Origin: a virus
Reading direction: 5' to 3' (one strand)
IMG/VR virus record: IMGVR_UViG_3300032092_000146
Span: 1-31,972 of that record
Length of the DNA stretch: 31,972 nucleotides
Positions 3,995-19,748 of this stretch are shown here, piece after piece. Both the position numbers and the translations under genes were made by a program. The notes beneath the pieces are model-generated. The model saw only the letters and a list, made by a program, of their open reading frames with translations. It had not been told where the DNA came from and ran no database searches. How positions within the stretch are numbered: the first letter of the stretch is position 1; each line of letters opens with the position of its first letter.

Positions 3995-6376
3995 TTAGCC
4001 TTCGGAGGGTAGTTCGGGGTTAATGGGGGGTTCATACCCTGGGTCCACAGGGTCGGGGTCAATCGGGCCGTTGAACAAGAATTCGGGGTCGCTTGCAATC
4101 GGTGTGGTCGTGGTTGCCGCAAAGTCGGTCAGGTTGAGGATGCGTCGGAGCGTGACACGGCACGGCTTCATCTGCCCTACCAAATAGTCCCGAATCTCCA
4201 GCAACCTCCACCGAATACCGCCGTAGTACACGGGCTTGCGGAAGTCAAGTTGGTAAATGTCCACGCTTGATAGCAGCATCGTGAGTTCCAACTGCAAGGC
4301 TTCCTGACTGACCGTTTCGTTGATGTAGTTCAACCAGTAGGTGTTGTAGAGGTTGTTATTGGTGTAGGCGTACGGCGACCCGCTTGCGTTCACGGCGTTG
4401 TAGTACACCAAGCGAGGCTGCCCAAAGGTGAGGTCCACATTCGGGGCGTAGGGGTTGTCAATGTGGGACACGAAGGGCATCTTAAGGATACCGACGGATA
4501 GGGCCGTGTTCCCGCTGACCCCGTATTGGTAGGCCCATTCGGTCTGCCCCTCAATTAGGTTGTACTGCGCCAATCGGTAGCCCGTCTGCAGGGCTTTGAT
4601 GGTCCCGCTTGCGAGCGTTCCGTCAATGTCCCAAGTTCTGCCGACGATTTTGTCCGTGCTGAAAGATGCGGGTATAAGAGTGCCGCACAGGGTTTCCACC
4701 ACCTTGTCCCCCTTGCCGTAAAAGTTACCCGTGTTGAAGATTCGCCCCCCGTAGCCTTCCCTTGCAAGCGGGTAGGATTGTTTATAGGTTTTGGACAGGT
4801 AATCACCCATGTCCTTGTACTTGAAGATGATATTGGTATAGGCGTTGGGGTCGCCATTGGTGAGGTTCTGCTCGGCGTTCTCATCCGACTTTTGCGACCA
4901 ATCCACCACCGACCCGCTGGAATAAAAATCCTTCCAAGGTTCAATATAAAGCAGTTTCGGGTCTTGTGGGTCGGGCATGAACTGGAGGTTGAACATCTTC
5001 TGCAAATCTTGCAGGAGGTCGCTCTGCTTGACATCGGCAGGCAAGGCCGTCCGCATATCCAGCACCCCGATATTGGATGGGTTTTCTAGACAGGTCCATT
5101 GAACTGTTGCGCCCGATAAAAGCGTATAGGGTTGAGTTACTCCGCTCCTTATGTCCTCAACACGAAACCCAATGTTTGCGGTAGTGTTTGCTGGTATAGT
5201 GATATTCTCAAAGGTAATTTTTGTGGCTTGGTTATTTACTACATCAAAATTTCCAATTACCGCATTATCAGTACCAGCAGTCAAATTCCTTACCGACATA
5301 CTACACACAAAACGATGTTGCCCACCTGGCGACACAAACGACCCGCTTAAGGTAAAATTGATGTCAACATTCCATCTTGTATCGGTCGCAGGTGCGACAA
5401 AGGTGCTGGACGATGCGACCCAGTATCCTGGGTTGTCGTAAAACGGTGCAGGGGTGTCTTTAGGAAAATTGAGTGTATAGTTTGTAAGCAAAAATATATT
5501 GGTGTTCCCCGTGCTTTGAGCAAGGATGTTGGACCCCGACAGGTTTATCGGCATCGTCCCCGCTGCATAAGGCATCACCAACTTGTTGAATAGGGACGAA
5601 TTAAAGAATGTGCTGGAATAACGGAACCCTGCCTCGGCGAAGATGAGGTCCACCATCTTCTTGACATAGATGCTTGGACCGAGCCTCCACCACGGGGCTT
5701 GGAACCAGCCGCCGCCTTGGTTCAAGATGTCCGTGAACCCCGCCGCATCCACCACGCCGTAAACATACCCGCTACTCAACGCACCCGATGCCGTCCAAGT
5801 TCCGCTCACATGGCCGCTCGTGGGCGTGTGGTTCATCCCTGTCACTCCCGCCGTGTTCACCAGCATATTGCCCTCAATGGCTTTGAACAGGGACACATTA
5901 TCGGTGAACAACCCGACCTCGTAGGTGACGGTCCCCTTGGTTTTGCTCATTGATAGCAACTGCAGCACGCCCGAAAACACCTGCACGCCATCCTCCCACA
6001 TAGCGGCACGGATTCGCTTGTTGGGTTGGAATCCACCCACAAAGGACTGGATGTTGTAAGCATACGCAAAGCAGGCCCGATTCGTCGGGGTGTTCGGCAG
6101 GGTAATGGTCTTTGAGAACGACCCCCGTTGCTTTGTCACATCCTCAATGTCGCCAATGGAATAGGTGACGGCAATGTCGGTCCCGCCCATAGTGTCAAGG
6201 ACATAAGCGAGTTCGGGCATGGCATTCAGCCCCGCAAAGCGCAGGTACAGGCAGTCAAAGCAAGCGTCTTCCTTGGTGTCCGCTCCATCGGCATCGGCAC
6301 GGGTGTTGAAGTTGTTCCACGCCGCCAAGTCGTTGATGAAACTGGTCGTCGGGTAGGCTATGAGGGTTACACTCAT
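3995..6376 (-). CDS. tail hub / baseplate-like protein
   Basis: The 793-aa protein is probably the tail-tip hub, a structural protein that may also carry host-binding parts. The N-terminal region includes VTYSIGDIEDVTKQRGSFSK and TITLPNTPTN (about 70-98), a hub-type signature in Bacteroidota phage tails. Residues about 290-430 form a Thr/Asn/Ser-rich, beta-rich stretch coded by DNA that is more AT-rich than the flanks, which looks like an inserted module. The C-terminus ends in a Pro-rich tail (DPDPVDPGYEPP). Its ATG overlaps the stop of the Dit-like gene upstream (ATGA at 6373-6376), implying coupled translation. The hub role is inferred from motif and position; a side-fibre role for the central module is possible. 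Confidence 0.65.
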   Translation of the reverse strand: MSVTLIAYPTTSFINDLAAWNNFNTRADADGADTKEDACFDCLYLRFAGLNAMPELAYVLDTMGGTDIAVTYSIGDIEDVTKQRGSFSKTITLPNTPTNRACFAYAYNIQSFVGGFQPNKRIRAAMWEDGVQVFSGVLQLLSMSKTKGTVTYEVGLFTDNVSLFKAIEGNMLVNTAGVTGMNHTPTSGHVSGTWTASGALSSGYVYGVVDAAGFTDILNQGGGWFQAPWWRLGPSIYVKKMVDLIFAEAGFRYSSTFFNSSLFNKLVMPYAAGTMPINLSGSNILAQSTGNTNIFLLTNYTLNFPKDTPAPFYDNPGYWVASSSTFVAPATDTRWNVDINFTLSGSFVSPGGQHRFVCSMSVRNLTAGTDNAVIGNFDVVNNQATKITFENITIPANTTANIGFRVEDIRSGVTQPYTLLSGATVQWTCLENPSNIGVLDMRTALPADVKQSDLLQDLQKMFNLQFMPDPQDPKLLYIEPWKDFYSSGSVVDWSQKSDENAEQNLTNGDPNAYTNIIFKYKDMGDYLSKTYKQSYPLAREGYGGRIFNTGNFYGKGDKVVETLCGTLIPASFSTDKIVGRTWDIDGTLASGTIKALQTGYRLAQYNLIEGQTEWAYQYGVSGNTALSVGILKMPFVSHIDNPYAPNVDLTFGQPRLVYYNAVNASGSPYAYTNNNLYNTYWLNYINETVSQEALQLELTMLLSSVDIYQLDFRKPVYYGGIRWRLLEIRDYLVGQMKPCRVTLRRILNLTDFAATTTTPIASDPEFLFNGPIDPDPVDPGYEPPINPELPSEG

Positions 6377-7548
6377 AGGATGTTGTTGTCGTAGGCTACG
6401 GCCACCTCAATCTGCAGTTGGGTCAAGCGGTCATTCCGTCTGGTTACGAATTGATACTGGTTCGCATTGACCACCGCTTCCACAAGTTGGCCACCGAGTT
6501 CGAGCCACACATACCCGCTACGCACCATCTCAATCAACCACTCGGATTCGGCGTCGGTCAGCCAATCGCTATTCAGGGCGTACACGAAGTCAAACGACCC
6601 CGCCCAAACCTTGTTGTAGGTCGTGGTTGCATAGACATCGGAGTTGTAGCCAAACACTTCCCGCTGGATGTTGGCCCGCTTTCGGTTCTTCATGGTGAAG
6701 GTGTAGGAATCAATCCCGCCGTACTTGTTAACAAAGTGAACGGGGATGGAATCAAACCGCTGGCAGGGGCCGAAGGTGAAGGTGGTTTGCACCGAGCCAA
6801 GGCCAGCGTTACCCAAGAACTGCACCGTGTAGGAATCGCCCTCCACCGCTCCGCTCAATGCAGAAATAGTTCCCGACAAGTTCGCAGGACCGCAAGCAAA
6901 TCGTTGAATGTTGAAATCCGTGGTCCCCGAAAGGCTGGGGCTGACTGCGAAATCGTAGTTCACGGATTTGTAGTTCACCCGTGCCGATACGAGCCAAGTG
7001 TCGTTAGCCGATACCGTTGTGTACTTGGTCCCGTTGATGGCGAGGAAGTTGCTGCCTCCTTGGTACACCGTGAAAGCCGTCGGGGTTGTCAGCGGTCGGA
7101 CCGAGTTGAAACTGCTCCCGATGCGGAAGTACGGGCTTAGGCTCCAGTCAGCAAGTTCCAACTGCTCCAGGTTCCCCGCAAAGGCCATCACCCCGCTGAC
7201 CGTTGTGGTTGCTCCTGTGACGGCGGGGGTGTTCCCGTACTCTTGGGTAAAGTCCAACCTGTACCCCGAATAAAACCCCGAATGGTCCACGAAGCCCGTC
7301 TGCGTGAGCGATGGGGCGGTCGGGGCTACGAGGGTCTCCACGACCTTCTGCACATCAAAGAACCCGAAGTTGGTGGTCGGCAGTTTGTCGCATTTCAGCC
7401 TTGCCAGCGTGGTCCCTGCGGGGTTCTTGACATCGCAGACATACCTAAAATTAGGCTGGGCAATCAGCGAGCCGCTGACTTTGTAAAGCATCTTGTTGTA
7501 AACGGGGGTCGCTACGAGGGGCGAACCCGAAAGGACGGATATGGACAT
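6373..7548 (-). CDS. distal tail (Dit-like) protein
   Basis: The 391-aa beta-rich protein probably links tail tube and hub. It begins MSISVLSGSPLVATPVYNKM and contains a tail-protein-like motif CQRFDSIPVHFVNKYGGID (about 268-286), followed by YTFTMKNRKRANIQREVFGY. The last part (about 320-391) includes SEWLIEMVRSGYVWLELGG and could be an assembly arm. It has no signal peptide and no transmembrane segment. It lies between a neck-like gene and the hub gene and overlaps the latter by four bases. The Dit name is a role inference from length, fold type and neighbours; a generic minor tail protein is the alternative. Confidence 0.6.
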   Translation of the reverse strand: MSISVLSGSPLVATPVYNKMLYKVSGSLIAQPNFRYVCDVKNPAGTTLARLKCDKLPTTNFGFFDVQKVVETLVAPTAPSLTQTGFVDHSGFYSGYRLDFTQEYGNTPAVTGATTTVSGVMAFAGNLEQLELADWSLSPYFRIGSSFNSVRPLTTPTAFTVYQGGSNFLAINGTKYTTVSANDTWLVSARVNYKSVNYDFAVSPSLSGTTDFNIQRFACGPANLSGTISALSGAVEGDSYTVQFLGNAGLGSVQTTFTFGPCQRFDSIPVHFVNKYGGIDSYTFTMKNRKRANIQREVFGYNSDVYATTTYNKVWAGSFDFVYALNSDWLTDAESEWLIEMVRSGYVWLELGGQLVEAVVNANQYQFVTRRNDRLTQLQIEVAVAYDNNIL

Positions 7549-13996: not shown

Positions 13997-14347
13997 CTAT
14001 TCGGTGGGTGGAAGTAGCAGAGTGTCAGTGATATAAGACCCTTCAGCGGTCTGCAAATACTCTTGGGCATTGTTGAAAACTTGCCTCCGAAGGTAGCGGA
14101 GTTGCGGCTTCGCCTTGCAGTCGTTGTTGAAGGATTCCAAGTTTATGATGATGGTGGAATAGTGCCGATTCAGTTCCTTACCGATAGCCGCAAAGGTGAA
14201 CAGGTACTCGTTGTAGGCGATATCGGCCACGATGTTCCGAGCGATTACGCAGGGCCGTTCCCGTGATGGGGACCGCACTTGGTCGGGGGTTATGCCGAAT
14301 ATTGCCGCCGTGGTGTCAACGAGGTGGTGGATGAGGGCTGGGGTCAT
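13997..14347 (-). CDS. DnaA domain IV-like DNA-binding protein
   Basis: The 116-aa protein looks like the DNA-binding domain IV of the initiator DnaA without the AAA+ ATPase. Residues about 25-75 read RPCVIARNIVADIAYNEYLF then TFAAIGKELNRHYSTIIINL. This matches the ARxIAMYL and IGxxFGxRDHSTVxxA patterns of DnaA, with HYST for DHST. In DnaA this HTH reads DnaA boxes. A phage version could bind the host or phage origin, block DnaA or bring replication proteins. The gene is the last before the terminator. It begins at ATG 14347 after a CCCCAAACC-type leader. The family call rests on the motif; the role is inferred. Confidence 0.7.
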   Translation of the reverse strand: MTPALIHHLVDTTAAIFGITPDQVRSPSRERPCVIARNIVADIAYNEYLFTFAAIGKELNRHYSTIIINLESFNNDCKAKPQLRYLRRQVFNNAQEYLQTAEGSYITDTLLLPPTE

Positions 14348-15280: not shown

Positions 15281-16714
15281 TTATTTTAGGATTGGAAAAC
15301 GGTCTTTGTTGTGGAAGGCCCAGCCTGGCTTCCATCCCATATAGCGGATGAACTCCAAGGCTTCGGCTTTGCTCTTGCATTGGTTGTGAAGGACCCAATA
15401 CGGCGAAATTACTTTGGCCTTGGCCAGTTGTGCCTTTTGGTACATGCTGCTGGTCGTGGCCAACTGCATGCCCTGCGCCTTGGTCATCAGGTGCAGGTCC
15501 ACCATCTCGCCCTGCTCTTGCGGCTTGCGCTGGTACTCGTAGCCGCAATGCTTGCACTTCATCGCTCCCACGGGGATAATCGCCTCGCAGCCCTTACAGT
15601 TCTTCGCCCCGCCAACGCCATCGGATTTCTTCTTGCGTTTCTTTTTTAGGGACCAATCACGGTTGGCTTCCCAAAATCCATGGTGGTTTACATTGTTGCC
15701 GAAATCAAGGATCGTGAACTCCCGCTTGGTCGGGGTCACCCTGGAGCCACGGCCCACCATCTGCATGAATAGGGGAAGGCTTGCGGTTGCCCGGTAAAGG
15801 ATAACTACCTCAATGGTTGGTTCGTCAAATCCCGTGGTCATAAGATCGCAGTTGCAAAGAATAGCATCGGGGGTATGCTTAAACCAAGCCAGCACATCGG
15901 CCCGCTCCTGCTTGCCCATGTCCCCATCCACATGGCGGGCGTTGTGGCCTGCGTTCTGCAAAGCGGCGCAGACCTCTTGACTGGATGCAATATTGCTCGC
16001 AAACAGGATCGCCTTCTTGCCCCTGCAATGCCTTCCGTAGTTTTTGACAACGCCATCAAATACCCTCCGCTTGGAATAGACCGTGGCCATCTGCTGGGTA
16101 TCGTAGTCATCGCCACGCATCCCGATTCCCGATAGGTCCAAGTTTGTCCCATAGGTGACGGGACTGGCAAGGAATCCTTGGCGTATCAGTTCCCCGACCT
16201 GCACAGGGTTGTGAAGTACCTGGTAGAACTTGGACAGGCATTCTTGGTTCCCACGACGCAGCGGTGTTGCGGTGGCCCCGATGACCACGGCCTTGGCGGG
16301 GATGCTTGCAAGTAGCGGGTTGAAGGTTTGCTTGTGTGCCTCGTCAATGATCACCAGGTCCATGCCAGCCATGAGGTCGGCATAGTCGGCCTTGTTCTTG
16401 CGTCGGGCGTAGGTTTGGGCCATAGCAATGAAACAGTTGCCCGAAACATCCAGTCGGGGTTTGCCCGCTTCAATGAGGGTTGGAACGATCCCGAACTGAT
16501 CCAGCGCACCGTTGGATTGCTTCAGCAGTTCAACCCGATCGGTGAAGATGATGCACCGTTTCCCCCGCTGAAGGGCCGATGCCACCATGAAGGTGAACAT
16601 GACGGTCTTGCCGCTTCCAGTCGGAGCGCACAGGATTATGTGCCTCTTGCCCTCTGCGATACTTGTCCGCATTTGGTCAATGGCTTGGTTTTGGTAGGGT
16701 CTGAGCGTAGTCAC
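15281..16714 (-). CDS. DEAD/DEAH-box (SF2) helicase with zinc ribbon
   Basis: The 477-aa protein is a superfamily 2 helicase. It shows LRPYQNQAIDQM near the start, Walker A CAPTGSGKT (about 28-36), DEAH (about 121-124), GATATP (about 147-152), and motif VI MQMVGRGSRV (about 315-324). A C-terminal zinc ribbon has CKGC and CKHC (about 373-392). Such proteins remodel DNA at forks or help phage recombination. The start is GTG at 16714, inside the first repeat of the GTAGTCA cluster. The upstream primase and the downstream VRR-NUC nuclease complete a replication module. No ATG is usable near this point. Confidence 0.88.
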   Translation of the reverse strand: MTTLRPYQNQAIDQMRTSIAEGKRHIILCAPTGSGKTVMFTFMVASALQRGKRCIIFTDRVELLKQSNGALDQFGIVPTLIEAGKPRLDVSGNCFIAMAQTYARRKNKADYADLMAGMDLVIIDEAHKQTFNPLLASIPAKAVVIGATATPLRRGNQECLSKFYQVLHNPVQVGELIRQGFLASPVTYGTNLDLSGIGMRGDDYDTQQMATVYSKRRVFDGVVKNYGRHCRGKKAILFASNIASSQEVCAALQNAGHNARHVDGDMGKQERADVLAWFKHTPDAILCNCDLMTTGFDEPTIEVVILYRATASLPLFMQMVGRGSRVTPTKREFTILDFGNNVNHHGFWEANRDWSLKKKRKKKSDGVGGAKNCKGCEAIIPVGAMKCKHCGYEYQRKPQEQGEMVDLHLMTKAQGMQLATTSSMYQKAQLAKAKVISPYWVLHNQCKSKAEALEFIRYMGWKPGWAFHNKDRFPILK

Positions 16715-16975
16715 TTGTAGTCACTTTGGTTTTTGAGAAGTGACTACAAAAAACGGCCTTCCTGATATCGTGGAGGCGGTTGTAGTCAGTGTAGTCACTT
16801 GTAGTTACTTTTTTTCTTATGAGTAGATATACATCACACATGCACACACGCACACGCTCGTATATATTGCCAATGTAAAATAGGGGTCAAAACTGACTAC
16901 ACTGACTACTTAAAACGGAATGCCTTGATTAGTAGGCGTTTGGGCGTAGTCACTTCTTTCGTAATTTCTGACTAC
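16707..16975. repeat. iteron-like GTAGTCA repeats, candidate replication origin
   Basis: About ten copies of GTAGTCA or its complement lie in 270 bases. Tandem GTAGTCACTT copies are at 16707-16716 and 16717-16726. The inverse AAGTGACTAC at 16738-16747 can pair with the second copy. Three near-copies follow at 16782-16790, 16791-16800 and 16801-16810. Inverse ACTGACTAC copies are at 16892-16900 and 16901-16909, and single copies at 16946-16955 and 16969-16975 lie inside the primase end. An AT-rich segment and an alternating purine-pyrimidine tract (about 16825-16852) sit between the groups. This resembles an iteron origin recognised by an initiator. It could instead be an operator array for the helicase gene. 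Confidence 0.6.
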
Positions 16976-19144
16976 AAAATAGCATCCGAGGAAATTTCGC
17001 TCCCTTCGGCATACTTTTTGACACCCAAGGGACTTTAGGATGGCTCCAAGTTTGTGTGCGGACACATGCTGGCGGGTGCAGGTCTCAATGACATCCTTGA
17101 TCTCGGAGTTGGTCAGCCACTTGCCTTCGGGGTCGTCGCTCCGATCGGGGATGGTAAACAATTTGAGCAGGAGTTCTTTCTCCACGGCGGGCTGGACATT
17201 CAGTTGGGTCCGATCGTTGAGGATTGCGATCTCGGCTTTGGACAACTGCCAGGCATCGCTTCCGTGGGTTTGAATGGCATGGTAGCACTCAATGAATAGG
17301 TCGGTCTTGTCAATGGCATCATAGGCATCCCAGTCAATGCTTGCGGCCACCACGGGCAGAATCCGTCGGTTTCCCGTTGGGTCATTGATGACTTCTTCGT
17401 CGTTGGAAGTCCCGCATAGGACCGCATAACGGTTCAAATCTTCGTGGACCCGTCCGTAGGGCTTGCGGATGCTAAAGGTCTGCTTGGAGGATAGTTCCTT
17501 CAGTTTCTTGGCCTCCTGCTTTGATTTGCCCCCGAACTCGTCATCGCAGAGGATAATCTTCTTGCACATGAGGATCTCGTCGTCCTTGCCTGCATCCAGT
17601 TTTGATTCCCCATAATAAGACCGCAGTTCGGCAGGGAGGATATTGCGGAAGAAGTTTGTCTTGCCGATACCCTGGTCCCCGCATAGCACCAAGATGGCCA
17701 GCGAGTAATCGCCCTGCATGCTTGCAACCACGGAGCAGAGCCACTTGTAGATACACATCTGCACGAATGCGTGTTCTTGGGTCGTGCTGGTGATCGTGTT
17801 GGTCAGGGCTTCAATGCACCCCTTCGGTTGGCGGTGGCCGTTTTTGGCGAAGAACTCCAAAAACGGATTGTAGGTAACGACAAAATCCGAATCCACGATG
17901 GCGTTGACCAGTTGCATGTTGACCTCCTTCTTGCCGAAGTTCTCCAAGCAAGCGACATAAATATTATTGAGATCCGTATCGTTAATCGGTTGGCCGTTGA
18001 GTTCAATGTTTCTAGTCACGGCGTTGCGGCGCAGGTCGTAGGATCGCAGGTACGCTTTGATCTGCTTGATGGGCGAATCCTCGGTTGATGCGGTTTTGAG
18101 TTCATCGCTATCCATTTGCATGGTGTGTGCGACGATTTCATCCAACTGCTCGACATCAATCTGATCAATTTCCCGAAGGATGCGGACCGCCGTTTCGGTA
18201 GCGGAGGCGATGTCTTTTGGGCCGCCATTGGTTCCCACTCGCATGCGGTGGGTCTTGGCGGTTGAGACGATGTGGCGGGTTTGCGGGGTTTGGATTTCAA
18301 CGCCCGCATTCTTAGCCAGCCACATGAAGGACGCAAAGGATACGGAGTTCTGCTTGGTTTGGCAGAGGGCTTTGTACTTCCGATCGCAGGCTTGTGGGTC
18401 GTACTTCGGGGATATGGCTGACACCCGATGGAACAAGTCCGCACCCATGTCCTGGTACTTTGCGGCAATGGCAAAGCCGATCTTCACCCAGTCAGCATAG
18501 GAGTTGGTAAGGTCAATCCGCTTGGCTTCAATCTGCTGGACGATATGCTCCACATCGTGTTCGCCGTGTGGATAGAATTTTGGTGCAGGCGTTGCCTTGG
18601 CTTTGGGAAGGTAGGCTTTGAATACGGCCACCTTGCGTTCGGTGTGGTAGGCTTCGGGGTCAAAACTGACGAACCGAAGGCGGGACACATCCTTGCATGC
18701 GGGGTCAATAATGATGTGGTACTTATCAGCCAATCGTTTTTCCAAGGCGAAGAACGCTTCCAGGTGCCGATCGGGTTCAATGCGGTAATAGGCGGCATAC
18801 CCTTCCCCTCCCGTGGACTTGTGCATGGCAAGAAGAAACTCGTCATTCAGCAGAGCCTTCATGTTCACGCCCTCGTTGTCCTTGGCATCAATGTCAATGC
18901 AAAGGATCCCCGAATGGGTGTCAAGGCCGTCCCTGCCCTGCTTCTTGAACTTGCCGCTTGGTGTAACGGCAGAAAGCCTGCGTTTGGTTTCGTCCGTCTT
19001 GGCGGCACGGTATGCGGTCACTTCGTTGTACCAATACCCATCACGGATATTGGTGATGTACTCCGCAAAGTCCAGGTGATCGTCGGGCGTGGTGTTGCGT
19101 GTTGCCGCTCCTTTTGCGGCCTTGAATAGTGAAATTGTTGCCAT
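16910..19144 (-). CDS. primase-helicase (VirE/D5-like)
   Basis: The 744-aa protein joins a primase-like N-terminus to a VirE/D5-type helicase. GILCIDIDAKDN (about 79-90) gives the DxD of an archaeo-eukaryotic primase-type (BT4734-like) domain, with further conserved parts to about 190. A PriCT-like segment SYADWVKIGFAIAAKY lies near 214-229. The helicase core has Walker A GDQGIGKTNFF (about 488-498), Walker B IILCDDEFGG (about 529-538) and NDPTGNRRILPVVA (about 584-597), a sensor/Arg-finger segment. The protein probably primes and unwinds phage DNA. Two bases past its stop codon begins the run of repeats. ATG 19144 is nine bases after a terminator hairpin. Confidence 0.85.
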   Translation of the reverse strand: MATISLFKAAKGAATRNTTPDDHLDFAEYITNIRDGYWYNEVTAYRAAKTDETKRRLSAVTPSGKFKKQGRDGLDTHSGILCIDIDAKDNEGVNMKALLNDEFLLAMHKSTGGEGYAAYYRIEPDRHLEAFFALEKRLADKYHIIIDPACKDVSRLRFVSFDPEAYHTERKVAVFKAYLPKAKATPAPKFYPHGEHDVEHIVQQIEAKRIDLTNSYADWVKIGFAIAAKYQDMGADLFHRVSAISPKYDPQACDRKYKALCQTKQNSVSFASFMWLAKNAGVEIQTPQTRHIVSTAKTHRMRVGTNGGPKDIASATETAVRILREIDQIDVEQLDEIVAHTMQMDSDELKTASTEDSPIKQIKAYLRSYDLRRNAVTRNIELNGQPINDTDLNNIYVACLENFGKKEVNMQLVNAIVDSDFVVTYNPFLEFFAKNGHRQPKGCIEALTNTITSTTQEHAFVQMCIYKWLCSVVASMQGDYSLAILVLCGDQGIGKTNFFRNILPAELRSYYGESKLDAGKDDEILMCKKIILCDDEFGGKSKQEAKKLKELSSKQTFSIRKPYGRVHEDLNRYAVLCGTSNDEEVINDPTGNRRILPVVAASIDWDAYDAIDKTDLFIECYHAIQTHGSDAWQLSKAEIAILNDRTQLNVQPAVEKELLLKLFTIPDRSDDPEGKWLTNSEIKDVIETCTRQHVSAHKLGAILKSLGCQKVCRRERNFLGCYFVVRNYERSDYAQTPTNQGIPF

Positions 19145-19281: not shown

Positions 19282-19524
19282 CTAAAAAGGCATATCACCA
19301 TCTTGGGGGGCAAAATTCCCGCCGCTGGTCTGCTGCTGCATGGGTTCCACTTTGCCTGACAAGAACCGCTTGCCGCTCTTGCCTTCCTTGACCCATGCGG
19401 ATAACCGCATCTTGGTTCCGTCGGGCATGATGATGTCGCCCTTGTAGTCGGGCCGTTTTGGGTTGTCGCCTTTGTCGTTGGCGAACAAGGTGAAGGTGTT
19501 GGGTTGTGGGGTGTAATCGCTCAT
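19282..19524 (-). CDS. single-stranded DNA-binding-like protein
   Basis: The 80-aa protein has a compact beta-rich body: NTFTLFANDKGDNPKRPDYK (about 9-28), an Asp/Gly turn (IIMPDGTKMRLSAWVKEGKS) and KRFLSGKVEPM. It ends in a Gln/Gly linker and an acidic tip QDGDMPF, as in SSB proteins that bind partners through the acidic tail. At 80 aa it is shorter than bacterial SSB and lacks full OB length, so it is at best a reduced OB-like protein. The gene is the last before the primase leader and overlaps the wHTH gene by four bases. SSB-like is an inference from pattern and context. Confidence 0.55.
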   Translation of the reverse strand: MSDYTPQPNTFTLFANDKGDNPKRPDYKGDIIMPDGTKMRLSAWVKEGKSGKRFLSGKVEPMQQQTSGGNFAPQDGDMPF

Positions 19525-19748
19525 GGGTTTTGGGTTGGGGTTTGGTTAGGTTTAATTGTGTAAGTGCAGTTATCTTCTATGAGCCATTTAGAGGCCCGTA
19601 AATCGCTTAGGATTCGGTAGGTGGTACGAAGGTTCACCCCAAGCACTTCGGCGAGTTCTGAAGCCCTGTATGGGCGTGAGGCGAGGTACGACACGGCGTA
19701 GATGGTGGCCACTCTTCGTTGGATTTCTTTTCCTTTGGGCTTGGGCAT
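19521..19748 (-). CDS. small winged-helix DNA-binding protein
   Basis: The 75-aa protein is basic at the N-terminus (MPKPKGKEIQRR) and has a winged helix-turn-helix: IYAVSYLASRPYRASELAEV, then LGVNLRTTYRILSDLRASKW (about 36-55), followed by a short wing LIEDNCTYTI. This looks like MarR/IclR-type recognition. It may regulate early genes, including the divergent promoters at 21640-21808, or assist replication. It has no effector domain and is shorter than full regulators. The ATG at 19748 lies two bases after the upstream stop. The specific target is unknown. Confidence 0.6.
   Translation of the reverse strand: MPKPKGKEIQRRVATIYAVSYLASRPYRASELAEVLGVNLRTTYRILSDLRASKWLIEDNCTYTIKPNQTPTQNP

Follow-up and report, generated by a model that had tools for sequence, protein, structure and literature searches.

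A probable iteron-type replication origin whose repeat unit co-varies with the C-terminal winged helix of a phage primase-helicase

The stretch of DNA under study, referred to here as the window, is a linear IMG/VR virus record of 31,972 bp in which a 195-bp gap (16715-16909) separates a primase-helicase gene from a DEAD/ResIII helicase gene. Copies of one short repeat occupy this gap and enter the coding ends on both sides, which raises the question of what the repeats do and which protein reads them. The comparisons described below make it very probable that the cluster is an iteron-type replication origin, read by the C-terminal winged helix of the primase-helicase itself.

Exact copies of GTAGTCA or its complement TGACTAC number 12 in the window against 1.8 expected, a count reached in none of 100 shuffles, and nine of the 12 lie at 16707-16975. 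The tenth site of the cluster is the variant TAACTAC (16801-16807, minus strand). Sites of the TNACYAY family number ten in a 297-bp region, against 0.7 expected and matched by none of 300 shuffles. Relative to the stop codon of the primase gene, in its reading direction and with < and > marking the two orientations, the sites are found at -66<, -43>, 0<, 9<, 102>, 112>, 121>, 162<, 186> and 196>; neighbouring sites of the same orientation are mostly 9-10 bp apart, about one helical turn. The sequence-only reading, which had described about ten GTAGTCA copies in both orientations, in tandem sets with a 9-10-base period, in a 195-base gap between two replication genes and running into both coding ends, is borne out by these measurements.

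The layout can be followed from the primase gene to the helicase gene. Two iterons lie inside the primase gene, at 16969-16975 (site -66, TGACTAC on the plus strand) and at 16946-16952 (site -43, TGACTAC on the minus strand). Directly 3′ of the primase stop codon, a first set of two TGACTAC iterons with a 9-bp period (16894-16900 and 16903-16909, plus strand; sites 0 and 9) is opposed, across an 86-bp spacer, by a second set of three on the minus strand (the TAACTAC variant at 16801-16807, then 16791-16797 and 16782-16788; sites 102, 112 and 121). Beyond them are a single inverted iteron (site 162, 16741-16747, TGACTAC on the plus strand) and a third set of two on the minus strand (16717-16723 and 16707-16713), which reaches the helicase gene and overlaps its GTG start codon (GTGACTACG). 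At 16707-16747 the unit stands in the context AAGTGACTAC, which includes AAGTG, the SCCmec Cch2 iteron reported in PMC7581432, possibly by coincidence.

The spacer between the opposed sets (16808-16893) has a GC content of 37%, compared to 53% for the window, in line with the earlier description of an AT-rich segment bracketed by the cluster, and is presumed to be an unwinding element. A conserved part of the spacer outside the repeats consists of alternating TG, then a TATATA-type stretch, then ACTC (TATATACTCT in many relatives). Another non-repeat block of the CCTCCACGCTATCA type (16748-16781), flanked by the second set and the single inverted iteron, is kept across the close family; it contains a weak hairpin followed by T residues and was not scored as a terminator. 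One pair of iterons belongs to a perfect 12-bp inverted repeat with an 11-nt loop (16715-16726 / 16738-16749), a longer stem than the 10-bp hairpin noticed at first, with a folding energy of -10.1 kcal/mol as DNA (z -5.1). A second inverted repeat of 19 bp with 95% identity (16782-16800 / 16891-16909) spans the AT-rich spacer. An Rfam search gave no match, scans for sigma-70 promoters (1 match, 0.7 expected) and for terminators were at chance level, and GC skew, which had been suggested as a check, makes no turn at 16.8 kb in this linear fragment and is uninformative.

The presumed initiator is the 744-residue primase-helicase (16910..19144, minus strand), identified by Pfam, by PHROG as a DNA primase and by its AlphaFold2 model. 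Its domains, in order, are a BT4734-like N-terminal AEP primase (PF08800, 46.4 bits with a cut-off of 22.4), PriCT_2, a VapE/SF3 helicase and a C-terminal winged helix; no Toprim domain is among its Pfam matches. The full-length AlphaFold2 model (mean pLDDT 84.6, pTM 0.50) has as its best PDB match the SaPI protein PriRep1 with double-stranded DNA (7pds; Foldseek E 1.8e-14, TM 0.62 on the target), followed by AsfvPrimPol and NrS-1, and the sequence relationship to 7pds (E 2.7e-6) is that of the SF3 helicase. The winged-helix domain (residues 674-726, 16967..17125, minus strand), recognized from the model, from fold matches and from its tracking of the repeat unit, is the presumed iteron reader; in the model it has a recognition helix at 696-705 and wing strands at 710-713 and 719-726. 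Modelled separately, residues 641-744 (104 residues) again form a winged helix, with most of the domain above a pLDDT of 90. With the C-terminal domain alone, Foldseek returned no match below E 0.001, and VIA-align returned a consistent list of many winged-helix proteins at Z of about 7, a level that supports the predicted winged-helix fold and not any particular kinship; the origin-binding domains of P4 and SaPI are absent from this list, which does not exclude kinship with them. Just upstream of the primase gene, 19282-19524 encodes a small protein with a weak match to a PHROG single-strand DNA binding family. On the other side of the gap, the 477-residue DEAD/ResIII-type DNA helicase (15281..16714, minus strand; Pfam, PHROG) adjoins the gap with its N-terminus.

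The proposal that related Bacteroidota phages be scanned for the repeat was followed with a search that gave 80 viral loci with primases 48-100% identical, and further searches brought the collection to 98 distinct loci (designated by L numbers), Bacteroidota chromosomes included. All distinct loci examined from the close family carry the cluster at the same place and with the same plan, and the unit varies. For most representatives, few or none of 200 shuffles, and very few other 400-bp windows from the locus, reach the count of exact repeats in the cluster. The sites of any one locus largely share one version of the unit, indicating concerted change, and their positions agree within a few bp across the close family. 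Variants across viral and Bacteroidota loci include TGACTAC, TRACTAT, TAACCAY, TTACCAC, TTGCAAC, TGCGACA and GTGTAAC. The clade of the window has TGACTAC, and most of L032-L051 have TGACTAT or TAACTAT; L056 and L068 have TAACCAC, L060 has TAACCAT (family TAACCAY), L071 has TTACTAC, and L242 and L364 have TTACCAC. More distant loci have TTGCAAC (Pontibacter, L436), TGCGACA (Saprospiraceae, L439), GTGCCAC (Flavobacterium, L440), TACCACC (a Pedobacter MAG, L442), TGACAAG (L445) and TGTAACA (L447). An AT-rich spacer of 83-137 bp with 18-37% GC is present in 19 of 21 other tabulated loci, distant ones included; L060 and L071 lack a clean spacer because a facing site is either degenerate or not recognized by the pattern. 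IMGVR_UViG_2222084011_000057 (40,220 bp), from which both L053 and L064 come, has its two primase loci near the contig ends and may be a chimeric assembly or possess two primase copies.

Among cultured phages, Flavobacterium phage FPSV-S1 has nine copies of GTGTAAC directly after vapE, at a locus where the primase domain is encoded by a gene of its own and vapE is followed by a VRR-NUC gene in place of the helicase gene. In Flavobacterium phage mymlan6-1, two GTTACC-type repeats adjoin the primase stop codon and eight copies of AGGTAAC follow about 600 bp downstream; the nuclease gene gp41 (6190-6753) splits the repeats of this locus (L084, 6109-7017), as if inserted into the origin cluster. 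The cluster is weak in Nonlabens phage P12024S, L082 and L041. Loss of the repeats with retention of both genes had been named as an observation that would speak against an origin; it does not occur in the close family and was found only in distant relatives, for example Cellulophaga phage phi46:1 (L083, 36.8% identity), which along with L441 and L444 has no cluster at the locus. In addition, 11 of 21 chromosomal loci with the C-terminal half fail the repeat-cluster test, and two Bacteroides plasmids have no cluster. A universal cluster 3′ of every homologue is ruled out by these distant, chromosomal and plasmid loci; with several distant homologues lacking it, the cluster characterizes this branch and some others but is not shared by all VapE-type genes.

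If the repeats are iterons, their unit should change with the protein that reads them. For 50 distinct loci of the close family, divided into four unit classes, the identity of each protein segment was evaluated by how well it separates same-unit from different-unit pairs (AUC). The winged helix (residues 645-730) gave an AUC of 0.944, which counts related sequences and not independent events and, since two of the four classes are one locus each, rests mainly on the contrast of TGACTAC with TGACTAT. It is the sole segment tested that tracks the unit: all others fall at 0.48-0.71, among them the rest of the primase-helicase (0.64-0.71), the flanking helicase (0.64-0.65), the VRR nuclease (0.58) and the SSB-like protein (0.49). 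The general DNA identity of the gap follows both neighbouring segments about equally. Linkage alone is nonetheless insufficient to account for the pattern, because at the sites bordering the helicase gene the unit is tracked by the winged helix, encoded about 200 bp away (AUC 0.981), rather than by the N-terminus of the helicase next to them (0.648). This co-variation is as expected of iterons and their initiator, and on this comparison of sequences the relationship is supported; from it we infer that the winged helix recognizes the repeats.

Close pairs of loci point in the same direction. Identity between L055 and L056 is mostly about 90-95% on the flanks and 66-79% over the winged helix and gap, and for both L055/L056 and L030/L047 identity falls to 56-79% over most of the winged helix and gap and recovers beyond; L030 and L047 share the local drop and show further drops elsewhere in the helicase gene. 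Where the winged helix of L055 reads KKVARREKN and its unit is TRACTAC, L056 has KKHNRREKG and mainly TAACCAC, with TGACTAC still at two of its sites; in L060, KKHNR is again paired with TAACCAY. Such pairs look like natural swaps of a cassette consisting of the winged helix and the gap. Correlations with single residues can be discerned: in the close family, His at residue 697 goes with C at unit position 7 and Asn with T (L052 is mixed), and in L056 and L060 His-Asn at residues 711-712 accompanies C at unit position 5. It is tentatively suggested that the unit and winged helix could constitute a specificity code, exchanged as one cassette and preventing cross-firing in co-infection, in which residues 697 and 711-712 set the bases.

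Other explanations of the cluster have to be weighed against an origin read by the primase-helicase. The repeats might be an operator through which the primase-helicase or another regulator controls the downstream helicase operon, with no start of replication. Self-control by initiators is common, and the last repeat and the start codon of the helicase overlap, so that binding there would probably affect the helicase gene. However, ten sites across 270 bp, two of them within the upstream gene, exceed the needs of a simple operator, promoter-like matches are no more frequent than chance, opposed sets around the AT-rich spacer are kept even in distant loci, and in FPSV-S1 the cluster follows vapE although the next gene is a different one; an operator without an origin is therefore considered unlikely. 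Packaging or recombination sites, which phages also carry as repeats, would not be expected to co-vary with the primase-helicase, and concerted change of the unit at fixed positions misfits functionless, neutral repeats, so that these possibilities have almost no likelihood.

A different phage protein might be the one that reads the origin. The DnaA-C-like protein (13997-14347, with a Bac_DnaA_C domain) and the 75-residue wHTH protein (19521-19748), both named as candidate binders in the sequence-only reading, are of DNA-binding types and encoded nearby, and DnaA-type proteins initiate replication in other systems. Neither tracks the unit (AUC 0.547 and 0.477): the DnaA-C-like protein reaches 93-96% identity between phages whose units differ, and 99% for L030 and L047, which also differ in unit, but 44% between the window and L053, which share a unit, and the wHTH protein is 85-88% identical across units but 49% within one unit (L013). 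Both are rejected as readers of the repeats on these patterns, and a different reader is very unlikely. The DnaA-C-like protein is highly mosaic, ranging from about 40% to 97% identity among close relatives in a manner unlinked to the unit. A further alternative, in which the inverted pairs act not as protein-binding repeats but by folding into a large stem-loop, is suggested by the 19-bp inverted repeat across the spacer, which folds with z -3.3, and by pRN1, where an AEP-SF3-winged-helix protein is combined with a stem-loop of about 100 nt downstream (PMC4234260). It is highly improbable here: judged by eye, the window and L364 retain complementarity between the opposed sets and L242, L396, L439 and L447 do not, some loci have a single left-hand site, and the conserved features are the unit and its position. 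With complementarity lost in several relatives, a pRN1-like stem-loop is unsupported as a conserved element.

The interpretation of the cluster as an iteron-type origin, offered in the sequence-only reading, thus gains support from relatives that keep the cluster and its plan and from a unit that co-varies with the DNA-reading domain of the primase-helicase. The primase-helicase would bind the TGACTAC repeats by its C-terminal winged helix, and the opposed sets around the 86-bp AT-rich spacer would position helicase rings face to face. Melting of the spacer by the VapE/SF3 helicase would follow, with the fused primase domain initiating new strands. The third set lies at the start codon of the helicase gene and may serve to enlarge the complex or, in addition, to regulate that gene. 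We infer that melting, priming and the start of replication take place at the cluster.

The literature searched, which leaves many subscription papers outside its coverage, describes no iteron origin in Bacteroidota phages and yielded no papers in searches for PriRep1 and for FPSV-S1; the type of system is known, but an origin of this primase family with a series of natural specificities seems to be undescribed there. The cluster is a specific origin candidate in a large set of phages that are uncultivated, and in some Flavobacterium phages that have been cultured. It also suggests where to look for origins in Bacteroidota elements: just 3′ of a gene encoding a VapE helicase with a winged helix. 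As the unit changes together with the winged helix, lock and key can be compared in nature, and the matched series, including the close pair L055/L056, makes it possible to study how an initiator alters its origin specificity with function kept.

In lambda-type origins, the O-protein iterons are part of the O gene itself, and the helicase is that of the host, recruited by O. The cluster resembles them in its iterons, its AT-rich stretch and a specificity that varies between relatives, but the initiator here carries its own helicase and primase. The alpha protein of phage P4 combines primase, helicase and a C-terminal winged helix that binds origin repeats (PMC4234260), the same three parts in one protein as here, where repeat binding is putative; the P4 primase is of the bacterial Toprim type, whereas that of the window is an AEP. 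ORF904 of pRN1 consists of an AEP, a helical PriCT-like domain, an SF3 helicase and a C-terminal winged helix, all of which have counterparts here, and the essential origin of pRN1 lies just downstream, depends on a large stem-loop and is said to be without iterons; for phages with AEP-PriCT_2-SF3 proteins, stem-loops were proposed in the same work (PMC4234260). In contrast, iterons are plain in the present cluster and the stem does not appear to be conserved, so the stem-loop proposal is unsupported for this phage family. The SaPI origin is the closest described case: the C-terminal domain of SaPI Rep reads iterons directly 3′ of its own gene (PMC7581432), and SaPI Rep/PriRep1 and SCCmec Cch2 share with the present protein an AAA+/SF3 initiator helicase, a C-terminal, putatively DNA-reading domain and an AEP-type primase (PMC7581432; 7pds). 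The differences from SaPI are that the hosts of this system are Bacteroidota phages and elements, that its AEP is BT4734-like with PriCT_2, that extra iterons occur in the primase gene and over the start of the next helicase gene, and that the unit is different and varies between relatives. In both systems, short iterons lie directly 3′ of the initiator gene and repeat sets flank an AT-rich stretch; the SaPI origin was reportedly described by Ubeda in 2007 as two repeat sets around such a stretch.
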